Below are positions 6,842-40,386 of a DNA stretch of 64,000 nt, piece by piece (the first letter of the stretch is position 1; each line of letters begins with the position of its first letter). Both the position numbers and the translations under genes were made by a program. Origin of the DNA: Halorubrum salipaludis (GTDB taxonomy: Archaea; Halobacteriota; Halobacteria; Halobacteriales; Haloferacaceae). The notes beneath the pieces were generated by a model. That model was not told the DNA's origin. It ran no database searches and worked only from the letters and a program-made list of their open reading frames with translations. Where the stretch lies: the NCBI RefSeq assembly GCF_002286985.1, contig NZ_NSKC01000003.1:372001-436000 (forward strand). Reading direction: 5' to 3'.

Positions 6842-7453
6842 ATGGACTACGAATCGAGCCTCGACCGCGCGATGGAGGAGGTTCCGGACCTCGGCGGCTC
6901 CGACGAGCGGCTGTCGGTCCCGGACCCGGAGGCGCAGAAGGACGGCGCGTTCACCCGGCTGACGAACCTCTCTTCGATCGCAGACGCGTTGAGCCGCGAC
7001 CCCGAACACGTCCACTCGAAGATCCAGCAGGAGCTCGGTACCGCCGGCCAGTACGAGGACGGACGCGCCCGCTACAGCGGGAACTTCCGCGAACGAGACT
7101 TCCAGGCCGCGATCGACTCGTACATCGAGTCGTTCGTCACCTGTTCGGAATGCGGCCTGCCGGACACCCGCCTCGAGACCGAGAACCGCACGCCCATGCT
7201 CCGCTGTGAGGCCTGCGGGGCGTTCCGACCCGTCGCCAAACAGAACACCTCGAACACCCAGCGGCAGGAGGAGGCCATCGAGTCGGGCAACACGTACGAA
7301 CTCGAGATCGTCGGCACCGGCCGCAAGGGCGACGGCGTCGCCGAGCGCGGCGAGTACACGATCTTCGTCCCCGGCGCACAGGAGGGCGAGACGGTCAAAG
7401 CGTACATCAAGAACGTCTCCGGCAACCTCGCGTTCGCCCGCCGCGAGAACTGA
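6842..7453 (+). CDS. Translation initiation factor 2 subunit beta with C-terminal TRAM domain
   Basis: aIF2-beta is part of the alpha-beta-gamma complex that carries initiator Met-tRNA to the small ribosomal subunit. The 203 residues show the alpha-beta domain (SSIADALSRDPEHVHSKIQQELG), a C4 zinc ribbon (CSECGLPDTRL and LRCEACGAF) and, from about residue 145, a TRAM domain (ESGNTYELEIVGTGRKGDGVA, GAQEGETVKAYI), which is usual for haloarchaeal homologues. The start at 6842 (MDYESSLDRA) is preceded by GCGATTTCC about 27 bases upstream. The frame opens earlier but has no family similarity there. Confidence 0.95.
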   Translation: MDYESSLDRAMEEVPDLGGSDERLSVPDPEAQKDGAFTRLTNLSSIADALSRDPEHVHSKIQQELGTAGQYEDGRARYSGNFRERDFQAAIDSYIESFVTCSECGLPDTRLETENRTPMLRCEACGAFRPVAKQNTSNTQRQEEAIESGNTYELEIVGTGRKGDGVAERGEYTIFVPGAQEGETVKAYIKNVSGNLAFARREN

Positions 7454-7576
7454 CGCGACGCTGAGGGCGGCCGGCCGCTCCCGGATCGACCCCAGCGCTG
7501 CCGGCCGCGAAAACACCGATGTCCGTCGTCTCGTTCGCTCGAACGCGGCACTAGCCGGCGAATCCGCGCAGTACGG

Positions 7577-7729
7577 CTAGCGGATCCGCCCGACCGTCAC
7601 CCGATGGCCGGTCTCCGAAGCGTGGTCTCGTTCGAGCCGGGTCGCGTCGCCGACGGCGCTGAACAGCCGTTCGAGGGTGCACTCCCTGCAGACGACGTGG
7701 TACCGGTCACCCGGTGTCTGTTGCTCCAT
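7577..7729 (-). CDS. Small C2H2-like zinc-finger protein (50 residues)
   Basis: Translation begins MEQQTPGDRYHVVCRECT and ends HRVTVGRIR. It has one CxxC pair (VCREC) and an HxxxxxH pair (DHASETGH) about 24 residues later, the spacing of small haloarchaeal C2H2-like micro zinc fingers. Such proteins usually act in regulation or protein interaction; the role here is unknown. CGTAACTAC about 27 bases upstream is a weak promoter candidate. It is too short for standard ORF cut-offs. Confidence 0.75.
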   Translation of the reverse strand: MEQQTPGDRYHVVCRECTLERLFSAVGDATRLERDHASETGHRVTVGRIR

Positions 7730-7859
7730 GGACGGGACAGACGCCGCGAAGCCGTAGTTACGCGCCTCATACCGGCGTCGAACGCGACATTGGGCCGTCG
7801 GAATCCGGCGAACCGTTCCCGCGTTCCTTCTCCTCTGATCCCCCTCCGCGGCCGTCCCC

Positions 7860-10223
7860 TCAGTCGCCGCTGGACCGCCGCTCGAACCGGTCGAGCGCCA
7901 GCCCGAGCATGTCCGGGCTCACCGGCTGGTACTCCTCGCGCTCGTGCTCCGGGAGGTACTCGCGGACGCTGTTCCACGACTCGCGCGCGTACCGGGCGTC
8001 GAGCAGGACGCGGACCCCGCGCTCGTCCGGTCCGCGAATCACTCGACCGACGGCCTGTCGCGCCTTCCGGACCGCCGGGACGGTGAGCGCGGTCTCGAAC
8101 CCCGACTCGAACCGCCTGTCGTAGGCGGTGATCACCGCCCGCGTCCGGGGCCGAGCCGTGTTGATGATCGGGACCCCACAGACCACGGCGGCCGACAGCC
8201 GGTCGCCGCGGTAGTCGACGCCCTCGGTGAGGGTCCCCCGGAGGCTCGTCACGAGCACCTTCCCGTCGCCCGCGAAGAAGTCGTCCTTCAGCGACTCCGT
8301 GGCGCGGTCGCCGGACGACTCGTCGAGTAAGACGGGCTTGTCGAGCCGGTCCGCGAGCGACTCCGCCATCCACGTCGCCTCCGCGTAGCTCGGCGTCCCG
8401 ACGAGGACGTTCCCCTCGCGGCCCGCCACCGCGGCGGTCGCGTCGAGGTGCGCCAGCCGGGTGTCGTTCTCCTCGCCGGGCGCGCCGCGGTTCTGGTACG
8501 TAAACTTCGGCGCGTCGACCGCGAAGCTCTCGCGGTTCTCCTCGGGGAAGGAGAGCCCGTACGTCCGCTCGACGACCGGGCGTCCCCGCTCCTCGAGGTG
8601 GTCGAGCCCAGTCACCTCGCGGAACACGTCCATCGGCTCCAGCGTCGCGCTCATCAACACCCCGCCGCCGAACTCCGCGAGCCGGTCGCCGATCGGTTCG
8701 CTCGGCAGGCAGTTGTACAGCGCGAGGCTCGCGTTGTACGCGCGCCGCCACGAGTCCGGCGGCGCCGTCTCGTCCCACGTCCGCTCCAAGTCGATCGCGC
8801 GGAAGAACTCCTCGTGGTCCTCGCGGTACCACGCGTTGAGGGTCCGGCCGACGCCCGGCGAGGCGCGCTTCTTGTCCTCGTCTTCGAGCGAGTCGAGCAC
8901 GCGCTTGACGACCGCGCCGACCTGCTCCGCGCGGGCCCAGACCCGATCGCCGTATCCCTCGCGCTTCGCCCACGCCGTGATCTCGTCTTCGGCGGGCTCC
9001 TCCGGGTCGCGGAGCGCGACCTCGTCGTCGTCGAGTTCGCGCATCGACGCCCGCCAGTCGGGGCGCTCGCGGTCCAGCCGCTCGGTCACCCGCCTGTCGA
9101 GCTCGCCGCGGAGGTCGGCGTAGAACTCCCGGACGGACTCGATCTCCTCGACGCTCACGTCGGCGTCCTCCAGCTCGCCGCGCACGAGCGCCGCGTCGTC
9201 GGACTCCGCGCCCGCGGTCTCGAAGGAGAGCGGCTGGACGACGCGGGTGAGCTCGTTCTCGGCGTCGCGGAGGCTGGCGTCGGCGACCCGGTCGCTCACG
9301 AGGTCCCGAACGCGCGGTTCGAGCATGTGGGCCTCGTCGCAGACGACGAACGTCGAGTCGTCCAGCAGCGCGCCCGTGAACGTCCCGGTCGTCACGGGGT
9401 CGAACGCGTGATAGTAGTTGCCGATGACGACCTCGACCTCGGGCACGAGCGCGCCCATGATCGAGTGGGGGCACGTGCCGTGACCCGCGGCGAGCCGTAC
9501 CAGCTCCGTCGGCCCGACGTGGCCGAGTTCGGTCACGTCGAACGGGACCGCCTCGGCCGGGTCCCCGTCCTCCGGGAGGTCGTCGAGGAAGCCGGCGTAG
9601 AAGGGACAGAACTCGGTCCCCTCGAACTCCTCGGTGTCGGGGCGGTACGGAGTGGGCTCGCCGTCGACGGCGAGGTAGTCGGCGGCGGGCGCGTCGCTCG
9701 CCCCGGCGTCGGCCATGGACCCCGAGTCCATCAGCCCGACCTGCTGGCTCTGGGCCTCGCTCACGAGGTTCGAGGTCGTCGTCGCGCCGCCGTCGCCGAC
9801 GAGGTTCCGAGTGCGCTCCCGGAGCCCCTCGCAGCGCTCGTACACGTTCTCGCGGTCGATCCCGCCGCGGTTCTCGCGGGCGTACGGGCACACGTCGGCC
9901 TTGCCGACGAGGGTGAGCCCGGAGACGGGGTCGTATCCGTCGGGGAGGTCTCCGTTGATCGTCTCCAGGTCCGTCTCGAACTGGCGCAGCTGCTGTTTGA
10001 CGCTCGTGAGGACGAACACGCGCTCGAACTCCGAGTCGGGGTCGCGGACGCGGTCGAGCCCGGCGGTGAGCGCGAGCATCGTCTTGCCCGTCCCGCACGC
10101 GCCCTCCAGAGCGAGGAAGCCGCCGTCGTCGGCGGCGTCGATCGCGGCGTCGATCCCGTCGGCCTGCTCGGGGTACGGCTCTGCGTGGCCGAAGATGTCG
10201 GTCCACGGCGGGGCGTCTGTCAC
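7860..10223 (-). CDS. ATP-dependent DNA helicase, XPD/Rad3/DinG family
   Basis: A 787-residue superfamily 2 helicase, probably 5'-to-3', used in DNA repair. Visible motifs: Walker A GACGTGKT (41-48), four cysteines positioned to hold an iron-sulfur cluster (C112, C131, C206, C251), DEAH box (296-299), and the late helicase motifs SLRGTLTEGVDYRG and QAVGRVIRGPDERG. An inserted low-complexity stretch (about 165-200) lies within the Fe-S region. The start at 10223 (MTDAPPWTDIFGHAEPYPEQ) has GGTTTAAC about 28 bases upstream on the minus strand. It corresponds to the Rad3-type helicases annotated in haloarchaea. Confidence 0.93.
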   Translation of the reverse strand: MTDAPPWTDIFGHAEPYPEQADGIDAAIDAADDGGFLALEGACGTGKTMLALTAGLDRVRDPDSEFERVFVLTSVKQQLRQFETDLETINGDLPDGYDPVSGLTLVGKADVCPYARENRGGIDRENVYERCEGLRERTRNLVGDGGATTTSNLVSEAQSQQVGLMDSGSMADAGASDAPAADYLAVDGEPTPYRPDTEEFEGTEFCPFYAGFLDDLPEDGDPAEAVPFDVTELGHVGPTELVRLAAGHGTCPHSIMGALVPEVEVVIGNYYHAFDPVTTGTFTGALLDDSTFVVCDEAHMLEPRVRDLVSDRVADASLRDAENELTRVVQPLSFETAGAESDDAALVRGELEDADVSVEEIESVREFYADLRGELDRRVTERLDRERPDWRASMRELDDDEVALRDPEEPAEDEITAWAKREGYGDRVWARAEQVGAVVKRVLDSLEDEDKKRASPGVGRTLNAWYREDHEEFFRAIDLERTWDETAPPDSWRRAYNASLALYNCLPSEPIGDRLAEFGGGVLMSATLEPMDVFREVTGLDHLEERGRPVVERTYGLSFPEENRESFAVDAPKFTYQNRGAPGEENDTRLAHLDATAAVAGREGNVLVGTPSYAEATWMAESLADRLDKPVLLDESSGDRATESLKDDFFAGDGKVLVTSLRGTLTEGVDYRGDRLSAAVVCGVPIINTARPRTRAVITAYDRRFESGFETALTVPAVRKARQAVGRVIRGPDERGVRVLLDARYARESWNSVREYLPEHEREEYQPVSPDMLGLALDRFERRSSGD

Positions 10224-22717: not shown

Positions 22718-22766
22718 ACCACCGGTAGTGGCCGAGACGCCTAAATGGGCGCCGGTTCCCGACCGC

Positions 22767-23594
22767 CTACGACTCCCGCTCGGCCGCCGCGGCGACGATC
22801 CGCGAGAGCTCCCGAACGTCGGGAACGGGCGCCGACGAACGTTCGGCTCCCGCCGTAGCCGTCCCGTCGTCTTCGTCTCGAAGCGCCTCCTCGAGCGACG
22901 CCCGCAGCTCGTGTACCCCGGCCGACGCGACCTCCTCCACCGGGGGGCCGTGCCGCGCCAGGAGTCGCGCCGTGCGCGGCCGGGCGCCGAGCCCGATCAG
23001 CTCCTCGACCGCCGACCTCTCCCCGCCCTCCGTCCCGTCTCCTGTGGCCGCTCGGCCGTCCTCGGCGGTCGCTCGGCCGTCCCCGGGAGTCGCGTCGGTC
23101 TCTGCTGACTCGGGGGTTTCGGCGGTCTCGACGGCCTCGCCGGCAGTCGCGCCGCTCGAAGCCGACCCGACCCGTCCGAGCGTTCCGACGCGTCGGGCGG
23201 CGTCCGAGCGACCCCGTTCGGAGTGCGGGCGCCGCGGCCGGCCGCGACCGCCGTCGGAGCCGCTCGGGCCGTCGGCGCGGGCGTCGTCTCCCGTCCCTCG
23301 ACCGCCGCCGGCGGGCTCCTCTGCGTCGCCGGTGCCCGGCGGCGGTCGGAGGCGGAACGACAGCGAGATGCACCCGTCTCCCTCCTCGAACGTCACGAGG
23401 AGCTCGGGCGGACTCTCCTCGACGCTCGCCGGGTCGACGGGCTCCGCGAGGAAGCCGACGGGGACCTCCAGGTCGACCTCGGTCAGCGCCATCGACCGCC
23501 CCGGAACGGCCTCTCGTTCCTCGTCGATGTCGACGGACGCGGCCAGGAGCTGCGCGTGGGCCCGTCGCATCAGGTCGTCGAGCGGGAGCGTCAC
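22767..23594 (-). CDS. Unknown protein: N-terminal beta domain, disordered linker, C-terminal HhH-like domain
   Basis: A 275-residue protein with three parts. Residues 1-90 start with a helix (LPLDDLMRRAHAQLLAASV) followed by strands (MALTEVDLEVPVGFL, PPELLVTFEEGDGCISLSF). Residues 91-205 are low-complexity Gly, Ala, Asp, Glu, Arg and Thr, probably disordered. Residues about 205-250 (VEELIGLGARPRTARLLARH, then PVEEVASAGVHEL) have the helix-hairpin-helix pattern of DNA-binding and protein-binding HhH repeats. Its start overlaps the stop of the previous gene by four bases. Last gene of a three-gene cassette of unknown function. Confidence 0.78.
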   Translation of the reverse strand: MTLPLDDLMRRAHAQLLAASVDIDEEREAVPGRSMALTEVDLEVPVGFLAEPVDPASVEESPPELLVTFEEGDGCISLSFRLRPPPGTGDAEEPAGGGRGTGDDARADGPSGSDGGRGRPRRPHSERGRSDAARRVGTLGRVGSASSGATAGEAVETAETPESAETDATPGDGRATAEDGRAATGDGTEGGERSAVEELIGLGARPRTARLLARHGPPVEEVASAGVHELRASLEEALRDEDDGTATAGAERSSAPVPDVRELSRIVAAAAERES

Positions 23595-24259
23595 GGTCCG
23601 CTCTCGTCCTCGAAGTGGAGTTCTGTCCTGACCGTTCCGATCCCGCCCGCGACCGCGTGCTCGGCGTAGCGCGCGTCGAACGGCGTCGCGTCGATCTCGC
23701 CGCCGAACGTCACCTTCGTCTCGACGTCGATCCCCTCCACGACGGGGCGGGGGTACCCCTGTTCGGCGACGCTCCGACGGGCGGCGAGCTCGCGGCGACC
23801 GATGCGCTCGGCGGCCGCGTCGCGGACCCGCCTGACCGCCGATCGGGTGAACAGCGCGAGGTCCCCGACGACCTCCAGCTCCCGCTCGGTGAGCTCCACG
23901 CCGAGGACGCGCTCCACGGGCGGCGTCTCGGAGAGCGGGCCCGCGGGAAACCGATCCGGGTGCACGTAGGGGCTGCCGGGTCGGACGGCGGTCTCACCCG
24001 GCTCCCACCGCGAGAGCGCCTTCCGGAGCAGATCCGGATCGACGTACGGTTCGAGCACCGTCCGGGGGTCGCGCCCGAACGGGGGGAACCGCTCGCGGAG
24101 GAACGCCTCGATCGCCTCCCGGTCGGCGAAGGCGGTCGGGTCGCGGTCGAGCGACTCGCGGAACGACGCGCGCTCGGCGGCCGCCTCCACCTCGGCGGCC
24201 GCGACGCCCTTCGTGCTCTCGAGGACGACGCCCGTCACCAGCGTCGAGAGGTCGGCCAT
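23591..24259 (-). CDS. Unknown protein, middle gene of the three-gene cassette
   Basis: A 222-residue soluble protein. The N-terminus (MADLSTLVTGVVLESTKGVA) is a hydrophobic helix, the middle is largely helical (about 35-175), and the C-terminus is beta-rich (GIDVETKVTFGGEIDATPF, GIGTVRTELHFEDES). It follows the first cassette gene by nine bases and overlaps the next by four, so the three proteins are likely made together. I do not recognise a family. The helix-then-strands plan resembles parts of the other two cassette proteins, which may mean shared ancestry. Confidence 0.78.
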   Translation of the reverse strand: MADLSTLVTGVVLESTKGVAAAEVEAAAERASFRESLDRDPTAFADREAIEAFLRERFPPFGRDPRTVLEPYVDPDLLRKALSRWEPGETAVRPGSPYVHPDRFPAGPLSETPPVERVLGVELTERELEVVGDLALFTRSAVRRVRDAAAERIGRRELAARRSVAEQGYPRPVVEGIDVETKVTFGGEIDATPFDARYAEHAVAGGIGTVRTELHFEDESGP

Positions 24260-24268
24260 CGCGACGGG

Positions 24269-25075
24269 TCACCGCGGCGGCGGGACTTCCGTCTCCCCTT
24301 CCTCGGGCCGGGTCTCCGGGACCCGAAGCGGCTGGTAGTCGCCGCGCAGGTTGAGCTCGACGCGGCCGAAGATCTCGCCTTCGACCTCCACGTCGCGCTC
24401 GCGCCGCTCCCGCTGGGTCGACACGTCGATCGACTGGTAGCCGCCGCCGATCCCCACGCCGACGATCGAGGTGAGCAGCCGGCCCGAGCCGCTGAACCCC
24501 GACCGGGTGCGCTCGCGCTGGCTCTCGGTCTCAGTGTCGCTCTCCCGGCCCCGCGCCTCGAACTTCAGTCGGGTCTCGATCGTCCCGTCGTCGAGGACGA
24601 CCCGGACGATCCCCTGTTCGACGAGCTCCTCCAGGGCCTCCTGTCGCGGCCGGGAGATCTTCCGCCGCACGAGCCGCCGGATCTGCCGGACGTCGCCCGG
24701 CTCTAGGCTCCCCGTCGGCAGCGACGACACCTCCAGGTCCTCCATCGGGTCCCGGAGCTTGGGCTCCATCCGCGAGGCGGCCTCCTCGTCGAGTTCACCG
24801 GGTTCCTCCGGGGTTCCGATGGTCGATTCGCCATCCTCCATGGGGCCGTTGGCTTGGATCCAGTGGTCGACCTCCTCCTCCGAGACGTTGTCCGCCTCGA
24901 ACTGCTCGATGCTGGCCGAGACCTGTTCGAGCAGGTCCGCGTACGCCTCCTGTTGGCGGATCATCGACGACACGGTCGCGTCGAACGTGTCGCTGATGAG
25001 CTTGTGGGTGAACTCCGGGAACGCGATCTCGTCCACTCTACTCAGCTCGTCGACGACGTCTGACGCTTGTGGCAT
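24269..25075 (-). CDS. Unknown protein, first gene of the three-gene cassette
   Basis: A 268-residue protein. The N-terminal half is helical (FPEFTHKLISDTFDATVSSM, then a coiled segment to about residue 60), followed by an acidic linker, a possible helix-turn segment (GDVRQIRRLVRRKISRPRQE, LVEQGIVRVVLDDGTIETRL) and a beta-rich C-terminus with a Gly run (SIVGVGIGGGYQSIDVS, GEIFGRVELNLRGDYQPL). I start it at ATG 25075 because the TATA box TTTATAAT is 26-27 bases upstream; an in-frame ATG at 25084 is only about 18 bases from that box. Family unknown. Confidence 0.78.
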   Translation of the reverse strand: MPQASDVVDELSRVDEIAFPEFTHKLISDTFDATVSSMIRQQEAYADLLEQVSASIEQFEADNVSEEEVDHWIQANGPMEDGESTIGTPEEPGELDEEAASRMEPKLRDPMEDLEVSSLPTGSLEPGDVRQIRRLVRRKISRPRQEALEELVEQGIVRVVLDDGTIETRLKFEARGRESDTETESQRERTRSGFSGSGRLLTSIVGVGIGGGYQSIDVSTQRERRERDVEVEGEIFGRVELNLRGDYQPLRVPETRPEEGETEVPPPR

Positions 25076-25097
25076 ATCTGACATTCAATCAAGAATC

Positions 25098-25105
25098 ATT
25101 ATAAA
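25098..25105 (-). promoter_or_regulatory. TATA box of the three-gene cassette
   Basis: TTTATAAT on the minus strand (25105-25098) lies in an AT-rich stretch (about 25085-25140) that contrasts with the surrounding GC-rich DNA. Its centre is about 27 bases from ATG 25075, favouring that start and a leaderless transcript. Beyond it, 25106-25230 contains no gene that I can support. Confidence 0.65.
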
Positions 25106-25230
25106 TACACGTGATAACAATAAACAATCTACTTTCAGTTGACACGAAATGAGAGCGGGACTGACGTGCGGCGCGCTGTCGGGTCGCGGCGAACGCGAGA
25201 AGATCGGTCGATCCGAGTCGGACCGTCGCG

Positions 25231-34659: not shown

Positions 34660-34699
34660 GCCGCGTCCGAAAAAGGGAACCGAGGCGTCCGCCGCTACC

Positions 34700-37198
34700 T
34701 CAGAAGAGGTAGAACAGCGGGAAGATGAACACCCAGACGATGTCCACGAAGTGCCAGTAGAGGCCGAAGTACTCGATCGGCCGTTCGTCATCGAGGTAGT
34801 GGCCCTGATACACCCGGACGAACAGGAAGATGGCGATCAGGAGCCCGATGACGACGTGGATCCCGTGGAGCCCAGTCGTCACGTAGTAGATCGACGCCTG
34901 AATCGGGTCGCCGTGGGCGTTGGCGTTGATCGTCACGCCGCGGTCGAAGATCTCGTGGTTCCACTCCCACATCTTGATCGCCAGGAACACGAAGCCGAAC
35001 CCGATCGTCGCGCCGAGCGAGGCCAGCAGCCCCTGCCGGCTCTTGCGGTGGGCGGCCACCAGCGCGAGGATCACCGTGAACGAGGAGGTGATCAGCACGA
35101 ACGTGTTGATGAGCCCGGGCAGCGACTCCGTCAGCGGCTCCCACGTCATCCAGCCGGCGTTGTACCGGACGAAGATGGCCGCGGAGAGGAACGCGCCGAA
35201 GACGATCACGTCGGAGGCGAGGAAGAACCACATCCCCAGCTTCACCTTCTCGACGCCCTCGAAGGGCCACCGCTCGGCGAACTCGCTGGGCGGCGCGTAG
35301 AAGTCCTCCAGCCCCCACTTCACGCCGGACCAGATCATACCGATCAGTCCGACGACGATGAGCACCGGGTACACGGGGTTCGAGATTTCGACTCCCGTCT
35401 GGGCCACCGACTCACCCAGGATGAACGTGACCGACTCGCTGAAGCCGGAGAGCCCGAGCAGCAGGATACCGAGCGCCAGCGAGATCGCGAACGGCCAGAT
35501 GCTCGCGTGGCTCGGGTGTTTGTCCCAGTACGGGTACTCCGTGATGTGCTCTTCGTGGCTGTCGCCGCCGTCGGTCGCGGCGTCGCCGTCGGCGTCGGCC
35601 TTCACGGCCGGCCCGCCGTCGGGCACGTAGTCCTTCACGAACTCCAGCTTACCGGAGGCGTACGAGGGGCGGTTGGGCCAGTTCTCGAGCGGCGGGGGCG
35701 AGGAGATCGCCCACTCCGCCGTCCGCGAGTAATCCCACGGGTTGTCGCCGGCGGGCTCGCCGGAGACGTAGGACTTCGCGAAGTTGTAGAACATGATGAA
35801 GAACGACAGCCCGAGGACGAACGCCCCGATCGTCCCGAACTGGTGGTAGATCTGGAACTCGGGGTTGTACTCGAACACCCGGCGGGGGGTCTCCCAGCCG
35901 AGGAACATCGAGAAGTAGACGGCGTTAAAGCCGATGAAGAAGACGACGAAGTGGATCTTCCCGAGGAGCTCGTCGTACATCTTCCCGGTCACCTTCGGGA
36001 ACCAGTAGTAGGCCCCGCCGAACAGCGCCGTCGCACCGCCGAACATCACGTAGTGGAAGTGCGCGACCACCCAGTAGGTGCCGCGGAACTCGTAGTCGAG
36101 CACGATCGCGCCGAGGAACACCCCGGTGATGCCGCCGAGGATGAACAGCAACAGCGCCCCGAACGCGAAGAGGAACGGCGTCGTGAACTGGATGCGGCCC
36201 TTGATGAGGGTGTAGATCAGCGAGAACACCACGAGGTCGAAGGGCAGCGAGATCCCGATGGTGGTCGCCATCATCAGCGTCTTGATCTCCAGGTTGATCG
36301 TCGTCAGGAACATGTGGTGCATCCACACGAGGAACGACTGGACCGAGATCAGACAGATGGCGATGATCACCCACTTCCGGCCGACGAGGCGCCGCCCGGA
36401 GAAGGTCTGGAACAGCTCCAACATGACCCCAAGCGCCGGGAAGAAGACGATGTACACCTCCGGATGGCCGAAGAACCAGAAGAGGTGCCCCCACAGCAGG
36501 GAGCCGCCTTCGGTTGCGGAGAAGTAGACACTCCCGAGCACGCGGTCGGACGCGAGGATGAGGCCCACGGCGAGCAGCGCCGCGAACGCGAACAGCATCA
36601 TCCACACCGTGGCGAGGATGGACCAGGTGAACATCGGCATATCCATGATCCCCATCCCCTCGGCGCGCGAGTGGTGGATGGACGTGAGGAAGTTCACCGT
36701 CGACGCCGTGATGCCGACGACGAACATGAACAGCGCGAGCACCGCCCCGGTCGACCCGATGCTCGGCGTGTACATCGGGATGTTGAGCGGGGCGTACATC
36801 GTCCACCCGGCGTCGAGCGTCCCGCCCTGGAAGAAGCTGATCCCCAGCAGGATGCCGGAGAACAGGTACATCCAGTAGGAGAGCGCGTTCAGGCGCGGGA
36901 ACGCGAGGTCGTCGGCGCCGATCTGCAGCGGCACGAAGTAGTTCGCGAAGCCGAACCCGAACGGCGAGAGGAACCAGAACACCATGATCAGTCCGTGCGC
37001 GGTGACGGCCTCGTTGTACGCCAGCCCGGAGAGGATCTGGCTCGTCGGGTCCCACAGCTGCATGCGGATCAGCAGCGCGAGGACGCCGCCGAACAGCAGG
37101 AAGAACAGCGCGGTGATCGTGTACAGGATGCCGATGTCCTTGTGGTTCGTCGTGACGAACCAGCGCTTGACGGAGGTCGTCGGGGGAAGTTCGCTCAT
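34700..37198 (-). CDS. coxAC: Cytochrome c oxidase subunits I and III, fused (CoxAC)
   Basis: An 832-residue fusion. The N-terminal two-thirds is haem-copper oxidase subunit I: low-spin haem His68 ([11 protein letters not shown]), CuB and Tyr cross-link region HPEVY (His245, Tyr249) with Glu247, HH at 294-295, and haem ligands His380 and His382 ([11 protein letters not shown]). This pattern marks a type A oxidase. An acidic linker (about 530-565) joins a C-terminal subunit III part of about seven spans (ending [18 protein letters not shown]). It reduces oxygen and pumps protons at the membrane. The start overlaps the coxB stop (ATGA). Confidence 0.97.
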
Positions 37199-37983
37199 GC
37201 GCTCACACCTCCGATGGCGGCGGCGTTAACGCTCGCGGCGCCGTCGACGCTCGCGCCGCCCTCGACGTTGGAGGAGTCGCCGTCGGTCCCCTCGTACCAC
37301 GTCTCCCACTCGTCCTGCGGGATGACGGTGATCTGGCCCTCCATCGCGGAGTGGCCGGGACCGCAGAGCTCGAAGCACTCGACCGTGAACGTCGCCTCGC
37401 CGCCCTGCGCCTGGACTTCCTCGGAACTGACGGAGAACCAGTTGGTGTTGGTGTCTCCGGGGATGGCGTCGGACTTTATCCGCAGCTCCGACGAGCCGAA
37501 GTTGTGCCACACGTCCCGTGATGTCACCGAGATGTCGATCCGCGTATCGGCGGGCACGACCAGCTCACCCGTCTCGGTGTGGCCGTTCGGGTACTCGTAG
37601 TCCCAGCCGTACTGGTACCCTTCGACGACGATCTCGATGTTGTCCTCGTCGGCGTCCGGTCCGTCCTCGACGTAGAGGAGGATCCCGTACGCGTACACGA
37701 CGAGGCTGATGACGACGATCGCGCTCAACCCGAACGACAGGAAGAGCTTCTTGGCTTTCGGACCGCCCTGTCCCGTCGGGAGCTCGCCGACCTCCGGCGC
37801 GTCGAAGCCCTCCTTCGGCTCGCCGCCGTCGTCGCGGTACTTGTACACGTTCCACAGCGTGTACGCGACGACGATGGTTCCGATGAGGGTCCCTAACGCG
37901 AGGAAGACGAAGAAGATCTCGTCGAAGACCTCCGCCTGCGCGCGCCAGTCGCTCCCCTGTTGCAGGATAAGTGAATCTATCAT
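37195..37983 (-). CDS. coxB: Cytochrome c oxidase subunit II (CoxB)
   Basis: A 262-residue subunit II carrying the CuA electron-entry site. Two membrane spans ([40 protein letters not shown]) precede the external cupredoxin domain. CuA ligands: His160 (DVWHNF), Cys203, Glu205, Cys207, His211 and Met214 in [12 protein letters not shown]. The C-terminus is a Ser-Ala-Gly tail. I use ATG 37983 ([13 protein letters not shown]); an in-frame GTG at 37992 would add three residues. CTAAGGTG about 28 bases upstream is the likely promoter. It is the first gene of a coxB-coxAC operon. Confidence 0.97.
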
Positions 37984-38222
37984 GTTCGTCACTCTGCTCT
38001 TGTACCCACCTTAGCGAAGGCGCACTTAGCTCTTGTGTAGCGGAGCGAGAAGCGCCCCACGTGGCGACCCGCAGAGTCACCTTCAGCGGGGCGTGTCGAC
38101 CGGTCGCCCCGAGCTGCGACGGAGCGATGGGGAGCCGATCGACGGAACACCCGGAAGTCGATCGGCCGAACATACGAAGGCTATTTGTACGCGGGAACGG
38201 ACCGCCTAACAACGAACTCACC

Positions 38223-38675
38223 ATGGTCTCACTCACGCTCTTGAGCACGGCACTGATGGGGCTGCTCGTCGTGGCCACCTTCGTCGCCGTCGCGCAGATC
38301 GGAGGACAGCGAACCGCTCCCGGCGCCGGATCGACCAGCAGATACGACGCGGTGGTCGCGACCCTCGGCGACGTCGCCCGGACGCCGGCGGTCTGGGCGG
38401 TCGCGTTCGTCGCCGTCACGGTCGGCATCGGCGCGGTCGCGGTCCTCGCGGTCGGCAACTTCGGACTGCCCGAAGGGCTCTCCGGGAGTCTCCTCACCGC
38501 CGTGTACGCCGCGGTCGGCCTCCTGTTGACCGGCTTCGTCTTCCTCGGCGCGTACTTCGGCACTCGCGGCCGCGGGCTCGGAAACGCTCACGGCGTCGCG
38601 GCCGGCTCGTTCGCGGCCGGGCTGGTGTTCCTCGTGCTCATCGCGGCCCAGCTGCTCGTCGGGATCATCGGATAG
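38223..38675 (+). CDS. Membrane protein next to cytochrome oxidase, function unknown
   Basis: A 150-residue protein with four predicted spans (LLSTALMGLLVVATFVAVAQ, VWAVAFVAVTVGIGAVAVLA, LLTAVYAAVGLLLTGFVFLG and AAGLVFLVLIAAQLLVGIIG). It starts at ATG 38223; CTATTTGTA about 38 bases upstream implies a short leader. Divergent from coxB, so the two share a control region of about 240 bases (37984-38222). Haloarchaeal oxidase loci often include a membrane protein of this size. No catalytic motif is visible. Confidence 0.78.
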   Translation: MVSLTLLSTALMGLLVVATFVAVAQIGGQRTAPGAGSTSRYDAVVATLGDVARTPAVWAVAFVAVTVGIGAVAVLAVGNFGLPEGLSGSLLTAVYAAVGLLLTGFVFLGAYFGTRGRGLGNAHGVAAGSFAAGLVFLVLIAAQLLVGIIG

Positions 38676-38865
38676 TCGTCGGATAGCGCTTCTCGGCCGA
38701 TCGGTCCTCTCCCCGCACTTCCGTCTTCTCTGGACTCCGAGCGAAAGCTGTAACTTCGGTGTGGATCGTCGTTTCGAAGGAACAGTCTCATTTTCGAACC
38801 GCCCGCTCCCGACCGCCGCCGGTGGGTCAGGCCTGATCGGTCAGACGGCGATGAGGGCTGGCCGG

Positions 38866-39066
38866 TCAGGCGACGGCGACGCCGTTCCGCGCGAGGTAGT
38901 CGCTCGCGGCCTTGATCTCGACCGGACTCCCGATGATCCGATAGTGGTCGTCGCCCTCGACCACCGTCACGGTGAACCGCTCGCGGACGCCGTCCCGAAG
39001 TCCGTCGAGCGCGCGGCGCGGGAGGACGATCTGCGTGCTGTCACGGAGGCTCGACGGATCGGGCAT
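38866..39066 (-). CDS. Conserved small haloarchaeal protein (VNG_1110C-like)
   Basis: A 66-residue soluble protein: MPDPSSLRDSTQIVLPRRAL, a strand FTVTVVEGDDHYRIIGSP, then EIKAASDYLARNGVAVA. I recognise it as the small family found upstream of the DRG GTPase in haloarchaea. GTTTACCG about 26 bases upstream marks its promoter. Function unknown. The gap before it (38676-38865) has no supportable gene. Confidence 0.78.
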   Translation of the reverse strand: MPDPSSLRDSTQIVLPRRALDGLRDGVRERFTVTVVEGDDHYRIIGSPVEIKAASDYLARNGVAVA

Positions 39067-39276
39067 TCGACGTGTCGACTCTCGCGGTAAACGGGTATAA
39101 TCGTGTCGAAAGTTTGCCGAATCGACGCCGCGGTGGGGCCGTGGATCGCGGCCGGTTCGCGTATCGAGTGCGCGCGAGCGGCGCGGCCTCCAGAAATCCG
39201 GACCACTGAGGGGAAGCGCTGAGGTCGCGAGCCGGAAGGAACACCTTTAACGAGACGACCGGCCGACTGTACGCCA

Positions 39277-40386
39277 ATGGGACTGGAGGAAGAGATCGAG
39301 GACCTCCGCGAGGAGATCGCCGAGACGCCCTACAACAAGTCCACGGAGGCACACATCGGGCGCTTGAAGGCGAAGCTCGCGGAGAAAAAGGAGAAGCTGG
39401 AGAACCAGTCCTCCGCCGGCGGCGGCCACGGCTACGCGGTCGAGAAGCACGGCGACGCCACGGTCGCCTTAGTCGGGTTCCCGAGCGTGGGCAAGTCCAC
39501 CCTCATCAACGCCCTCACCAACGCCGACAGCGAGGTGGGCTCCTACGAGTTCACCACCCTCGACGTGAATCCCGGCATGCTGCAGTACCGCGGCGCGAAC
39601 ATCCAGATCCTCGACGTGCCGGGCCTGATCGAGGGCGCCGCGGGCGGCCGCGGCGGCGGGAAGGAGGTGCTCTCCGTCGTTCGGACCGCGGACCTGGTGG
39701 TGTATGTCCTCTCGGTCTTCGAGATCGAGCAGTACGACCGCCTGAGCGAGGAGCTGTACAACACCAACATCCGCCTCGACACGGAGCCCCCGAACATCAA
39801 CATCCGGAAGACGCACAAAGACGGGATCGGGGTGACCATGAGCGATGACGTGAGCCTCGACGAGAACACCGTCAAACAGGTCCTCCGCGAGTACGGCTAC
39901 GTCAACGCCAAGGTGACGATCCCCCACGACCTCACGATCGACGAGCTGGTCGACGCCGTGATGGACAACCGGGAGTACCTCCCCTCGATGGTCACCGTCA
40001 ACAAGGCCGACCTCATCGACAGGGACTACCTCCCGACCGTCGAGGCGGAGCTCCGCGAGCGCGACCTCGACCCCGACGACGTGATCTTTATCTCCGCGGA
40101 GATGGAGCGCGGGCTCGACGGGCTCAAAGAGCGGCTCTGGGAGGAGCTCGGACTCATCCGGATCTACATGGACAAGCCGGGCCGCGGCGTCGACTACGAG
40201 GAGCCGCTGATCCTGTTCGAGGGCGACACCGTCGGCGACGCCTGCACGAAGATCGGCGGCGAGTTCGACGAGCGGTTCAAGTTCGCCCGGGTGTCGGGAC
40301 CGAGCGCGAAACACGACGATCAGCAGGTCGGCAAGGGCCACGAGCTGGCCGACGAGGACGTGCTCCGGATCGTCGCTCGGAAGTAG
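39277..40386 (+). CDS. DRG-family GTP-binding protein
   Basis: Developmentally-regulated GTP-binding (DRG/OBG) protein, a ribosome-associated GTPase. The 369 residues show an N-terminal helical hairpin (EEEIEDLREEIAETPYNKST, then AHIGRLKAKLAEKKEKLENQ), the G domain with G1 GFPSVGKST, G2 TTLDVNPGMLQY, G3 DVPGLIEGA and G4 NKAD, an inserted S5D2L segment, and a C-terminal TGS domain (about 300-369, IRIYMDKPGRGVDYEEPLIL). ACCTTTAAC about 27 bases upstream gives a leaderless start. Confidence 0.95.
   Translation: MGLEEEIEDLREEIAETPYNKSTEAHIGRLKAKLAEKKEKLENQSSAGGGHGYAVEKHGDATVALVGFPSVGKSTLINALTNADSEVGSYEFTTLDVNPGMLQYRGANIQILDVPGLIEGAAGGRGGGKEVLSVVRTADLVVYVLSVFEIEQYDRLSEELYNTNIRLDTEPPNINIRKTHKDGIGVTMSDDVSLDENTVKQVLREYGYVNAKVTIPHDLTIDELVDAVMDNREYLPSMVTVNKADLIDRDYLPTVEAELRERDLDPDDVIFISAEMERGLDGLKERLWEELGLIRIYMDKPGRGVDYEEPLILFEGDTVGDACTKIGGEFDERFKFARVSGPSAKHDDQQVGKGHELADEDVLRIVARK

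Follow-up and report, generated by a model that had tools for sequence, protein, structure and literature searches.

A conserved three-gene operon of haloarchaea that probably encodes an undescribed accessory protein system

Do three tightly packed genes of Halorubrum salipaludis that resemble nothing in the family databases form a system of their own, and if so, of what kind? The genes, here called A, B and C, lie in a 64,000-nucleotide stretch of contig NZ_NSKC01000003.1 (the window), inside an interval (22718..25230) bounded by a DUF7110 gene upstream and by dph6 (PF01902) downstream. Gene A (24269..25084, minus strand) encodes 271 aa, or 268 aa if begun at a conserved ATG at 25075. Its stop is separated by a 9-base gap (24260..24268, minus strand) from the start of gene B (23591..24259, minus strand, 222 aa), whose stop in turn shares a 4-base overlap, GTGA (23591..23594, minus strand), with the GTG start of gene C (22767..23594, minus strand, 275 aa). 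The three minus-strand reading frames, the gap and the overlap are all as the initial annotation of the window described them. The AT-rich region that it placed upstream of A is also present, and contains a predicted TATA-like box, TTTATA (25100..25105, minus strand), recognized as a pattern match only. The box sits at -30 relative to the second ATG of A, and the start codons of A relatives align with that same ATG. Because of this spacing and the conservation of the start, a putative leaderless start at 25075 is likelier than one at 25084, and A probably starts at 25075 on a leaderless transcript.

None of the three proteins could be placed in a family when the locus was first read, and searches led to the same outcome. 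Pfam and NCBIfam gave zero matches to A, B or C of the window up to E=1, the PADLOC models gave nothing for any of them, and PHROGs returned non-significant matches only (best 0.02). Small matches to PHROGs 'tail' families (E=0.13-0.16) were judged to be chance, as were matches to Fil_haemagg_2 and to acyl-carrier families.

The genes are nonetheless genuine, as they are conserved at the protein level and in the same order in four other haloarchaeal loci, where they are packed as tightly as in the window; this makes five loci in all. The further copies are those of L007 (A 8998-9825, B 8332-8994, C 7272-8330), L018 (A 8538-9311, B 7713-8534, C 6939-7709), L021 (A 8601-9407, B 7930-8592, C 7285-7929) and the metagenome-assembled genome (MAG) A07HR67 (L010/L019), in whose assembly A and B are frameshifted. 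The frameshifts in the A07HR67 copy (L010:10004-11510) reflect either sequencing error or decay. Matches to B in two other genomes, G278 and G140, were dropped, being antisense or out of frame relative to other genes. The only feature that the surroundings of the five cassettes have in common, a displaced cox block aside, is a chemoreceptor-family match. Comparison of gene neighborhoods thus bears out a cassette that stays together independently of dph6, and since the flanks differ between loci, dph6 and DUF7110 lie outside that unit. Judged by this sequence conservation, A-B-C is a real, undescribed, conserved operon.

The initial annotation had proposed that all three proteins share one plan, of a helix followed by amphipathic strands, through duplication. 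Duplication was borne out for A and B but could not be shown for C. A begins with long helices (FPEFTxKLI...RQQEAYADL), followed by a DGTIET-type strand, a Gly/Ser-rich insert and a second strand GRVELNLRGDYQPL. AlphaFold confidence was poor for A and for C of L010 (pLDDT 38 and 42, respectively), and the low-confidence model of A was used for secondary structure alone: it has long helices at residues 22-64 and 132-156, and long strands at 168-185 and 226-243 on either side of the Gly-rich segment. Profile-profile alignment with hhalign relates B to A at E=1e-8 (probability 95.7%, 158 columns), with a score of 65.1 against a maximum of 17.2 among shuffled profiles, none of the 40 shuffles doing as well. 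In five of five carrier genomes, moreover, the second distinct match of the A profile was the adjacent B gene (E 1e-4 to 0.03). By these alignments B is a diverged, shortened paralogue of A. C gives no profile alignment with A (E=0.54), so duplication is shown for A and B only.

Gene C has a different construction, with a helix and strands at the N-terminus, a low-complexity linker of about 115 residues, and a C-terminal helix-hairpin-helix (HhH) region. The HhH-like C-terminus, first noticed by eye in the sequence, was corroborated by family matches in relatives. The C protein of L010 matches HHH_5 at 5.3e-8 with 33.7 bits (membership cut-off 27 bits), and HhH-family matches were obtained for four of the nine C-type proteins scanned, the other three being weaker than that of L010. 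Relatives of C also showed weaker matches to DUF4332 and to Rad51, L32e and DNA polymerase IV families. The C protein of the window has no direct HHH_5 match, and its HhH region was placed by alignment only. The relatives contain two HhH units, and alignment to them (best pairwise E=0.004 for the window protein) suggests that C of the window retains only the second.

The cassette is rare. A turned up in 2 of 59 relatives, in 3 of 170 genomes of the same family, in 2 of 146 genomes of another family and in 2 of 393 genomes across a sample of the phylum. Of the 52 genomes of the genus, 51 carry DUF7110. Among 29 related DUF7110-dph6 loci from same-genus genomes, 22 have dph6 directly after DUF7110, with 55-203 bases between them and no cassette; six hold about 1.45 kb at this spot, which was a cystathionine gamma-synthase-like gene in both of the two loci inspected, and one was uninformative. 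The DUF7110-dph6 intergenic spot (window 22718-25230) is thus variable within the genus.

Sequence divergence also tells of movement. The A proteins of L007 and L019 are 86-93% identical, though they come from different families, and DNA similarity between these two loci reaches 80% over 1.67 kb and stops at the A start codon. Within one genus, the A proteins of the window and L019 are merely 49-56% identical, whereas their DUF7110 proteins are 95% identical. High identity of A across families, set against about 50% within a genus where DUF7110 stands at 95%, argues for horizontal transfer. The cassette sites of the window and L018 also differ, although both belong to one genus. These comparisons support a cassette that moves horizontally among haloarchaea as a unit. 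A scan for tRNA genes in the related loci gave no support for a mobile element.

One apparent coincidence of position was considered separately. The cassette of L018 adjoins a GTPase gene, and a block of the GTPase and cytochrome oxidase genes in the window (34688-40384) is collinear with L018. Proximity to the cox genes in both was rejected as a sign of a shared insertion, since in the window the GTPase-cox block is intact at 34.7-40.4 kb and the cassette is at a different site.

Relatives of A extend beyond the archaea. A tblastn search with A of L007 recovered full-length homologues (6e-12, 91-95% coverage) in Burkholderia pyrrocinia, whose megaplasmid pBPJTT carries four A paralogues, and in Tolypothrix/Microchaete, where they are likewise on plasmids; hhalign aligns the archaeal A profile with the bacterial relatives at 2.5e-29. 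The Burkholderia and Tolypothrix clusters each include an S8 (subtilisin-type) protease, a common family of about 600 aa, and a C-like protein in which an HhH-like region comes after an N-terminal helix/strand part. Burkholderia also has, in its cluster, a protein that combines amidase, C92 and C70 domains; in that of Tolypothrix, a peptidoglycan-binding protein is encoded as well. The megaplasmid cluster (L011:439-16179), with this triple lytic-domain protein (Amidase_2, C92, C70), the S8 protease and the four A paralogues, is mostly annotated as hypothetical. The PADLOC model 'subtilase' was strongly matched by the bacterial S8 protease only. The C proteins of archaea and bacteria have matching architecture and position, but their profile similarity is not significant (E=0.03-0.29). 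Beside the archaeal cassettes no protease, hydrolase or defense gene was recognized, and the 600-aa partner family of the bacteria went unmatched in the five carrier genomes, in a search run without a positive control.

What might such an operon do? It is compact and real, patchily distributed, moves as a unit and has bacterial relatives beside proteases, and for these reasons A-B-C probably constitutes an undescribed accessory protein system. The more specific reading that we favor, tentatively, is a mobile accessory module with a role in conflict or stress, in which A and B are co-assembling paralogues and C is an HhH adaptor. A and B would co-assemble through their shared C-terminal domain, as their paralogy and fixed pairing suggest; C could be attached to this assembly by its N-terminal helix/strand domain, and its HhH region, seen in the relatives, might reach a DNA or protein partner from the flexible linker. 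The cassette would then probably be a cut-down version of the bacterial clusters, where a subtilisin-type protease and cell-wall enzymes are found alongside A- and C-type proteins, and this context may point to a conflict- or stress-response role. A further hint in that direction is the likeness, short of the Pfam cut-off, between the N-terminus of the Burkholderia C-like protein and Trypco2, a domain of conflict systems. Such a role is likelier than housekeeping given the mobile and patchy character of the cassette together with the bacterial proteases and wall enzymes. Our hesitation has three sources: no linked effector was recognized in archaea, the search of the carrier genomes gave no partner family, and there was no PADLOC match. 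We are far more confident that the operon is conserved and moves than of any functional claim. A bolder extension, which we think unlikely though worth stating, is that the co-assembling pair and the HhH adaptor form the core of a self-contained, cross-domain mobile module of a new class for inter-microbial or antiviral conflict, armed in bacteria by the protease and wall hydrolases and coupled in archaea to some trigger or effector.

The alternative that survives best takes the cassette for a DUF2589-like assembly associated with the envelope or with stress, serving ordinary physiology, with A and B as very diverged DUF2589 proteins and C as the matching linker partner. The weak likeness to DUF2589 (PF11655) remarked on in the initial annotation stood up only in part. 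Membership of A and B was rejected on the Pfam model (cut-off 23 bits), which matches 0 of 13 A/B proteins and finds nothing in the window's genome at E<=1. Profile similarity was above shuffled controls in hhalign, both for A alone (E=0.0052, probability 7%) and for A and B combined (E=0.00029, probability 41%), the combined profile scoring 34.4 where 40 shuffles reached at most 18.4 and a reversed control 17.3; a reversed control in another comparison with A, however, scored 27.4, comparable to A alone against DUF2589. At these probabilities the evidence for kinship of A and B to DUF2589 is no more than suggestive. The alternative also draws on gene organization: two same-genus genomes that lack the cassette (G019 and G098) have a strikingly similar arrangement, a tandem DUF2589 pair plus a third gene, with a 4-base overlap. 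In the parallel operon at L043:5773-7920 and L044:5066-7203, the third gene has a helix/strand N-terminus and a long, charged, disordered tail; in an archaeon of another family (L045:5071-6583), one DUF2589 gene, what is left of a second and a small helix/strand gene stand side by side. The third genes of the DUF2589 operons do not match C by profile, and the resemblance lies in layout, which does not prove kinship. A physiological role would fit the DUF2589-related genes AF0414-AF0417 of Archaeoglobus fulgidus, which respond to growth substrate, being up-regulated on lactate (PMC3949148). On balance we regard this alternative as possible but doubtful.

It is improbable that the cassette is instead what remains of a virus or plasmid, made of structural or maintenance genes. 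Patchy distribution and horizontal movement would be expected of such a remnant, and several A paralogues do reside on bacterial plasmids or megaplasmids, but no relative was found among 50,697 phage records or in two scans of viral contigs (IMG/VR), no obvious repeats mark the insertion in the window, and the PHROGs matches are not significant. That these are fast-evolving housekeeping genes lost from most lineages, with neither transfer nor a dedicated system, would suit a chromosomal cassette with ordinary neighbors at each locus, but is very hard to square with A proteins closer between families than within a genus, beside a DUF7110 that is 95% identical there, and with differing cassette sites in that genus.

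The mobile accessory module thus remains our preferred, if provisional, reading of the cassette. A and B fall outside described families and yet belong to a conserved, mobile haloarchaeal operon with full-length bacterial relatives of A that sit beside proteases and cell-wall enzymes. Working out the cassette would name a new protein family and connect archaeal and bacterial accessory modules. It would also clarify the DUF2589 operons of the same layout, which are equally unexplained.

Four known groups of proteins or systems invite comparison. The uncharacterized S8-protease clusters on pBPJTT of Burkholderia pyrrocinia and on Tolypothrix plasmids resemble the cassette in their full-length homologues of A and their C-like protein; they differ in having the protease, amidase or peptidoglycan-binding proteins and the 600-aa family, and no B orthologue was recognized in them. 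Archaeal DUF2589 operons similarly combine a tandem pair of paralogues with a third gene whose product starts with helix and strands and has a long disordered linker, and the DUF2589 pattern of strand, Gly-rich insert and strand resembles A; the N-terminal helices of A and B differ, however, and the DUF2589 third gene has no HhH match. Proteins of the HHH_5/DUF4332 group, such as the Rad51 N-domain, archaeal L32e and DNA polymerase IV, match the HhH units of C by profile, but C is without a recognized catalytic or ribosomal domain and carries its HhH region on a long linker beside a separate N-terminal domain. In the Trypco2 domain (PF19631) of NTP-dependent conflict systems, finally, a short helix and strands recall the N-terminus of the Burkholderia C-like protein, which matches it at E=0.0098 and 16.6 bits, below the Pfam cut-off of 24.2 bits. 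No archaeal C has a Trypco2 match, and reading the genes around the archaeal cassettes by eye revealed no recognizable trypsin/VMAP, MoxR or vWA genes. In conflict systems Trypco2 is reported to occur next to trypsin-like proteases (PMC7159879), and PMC10907252 treats it as an adaptor.
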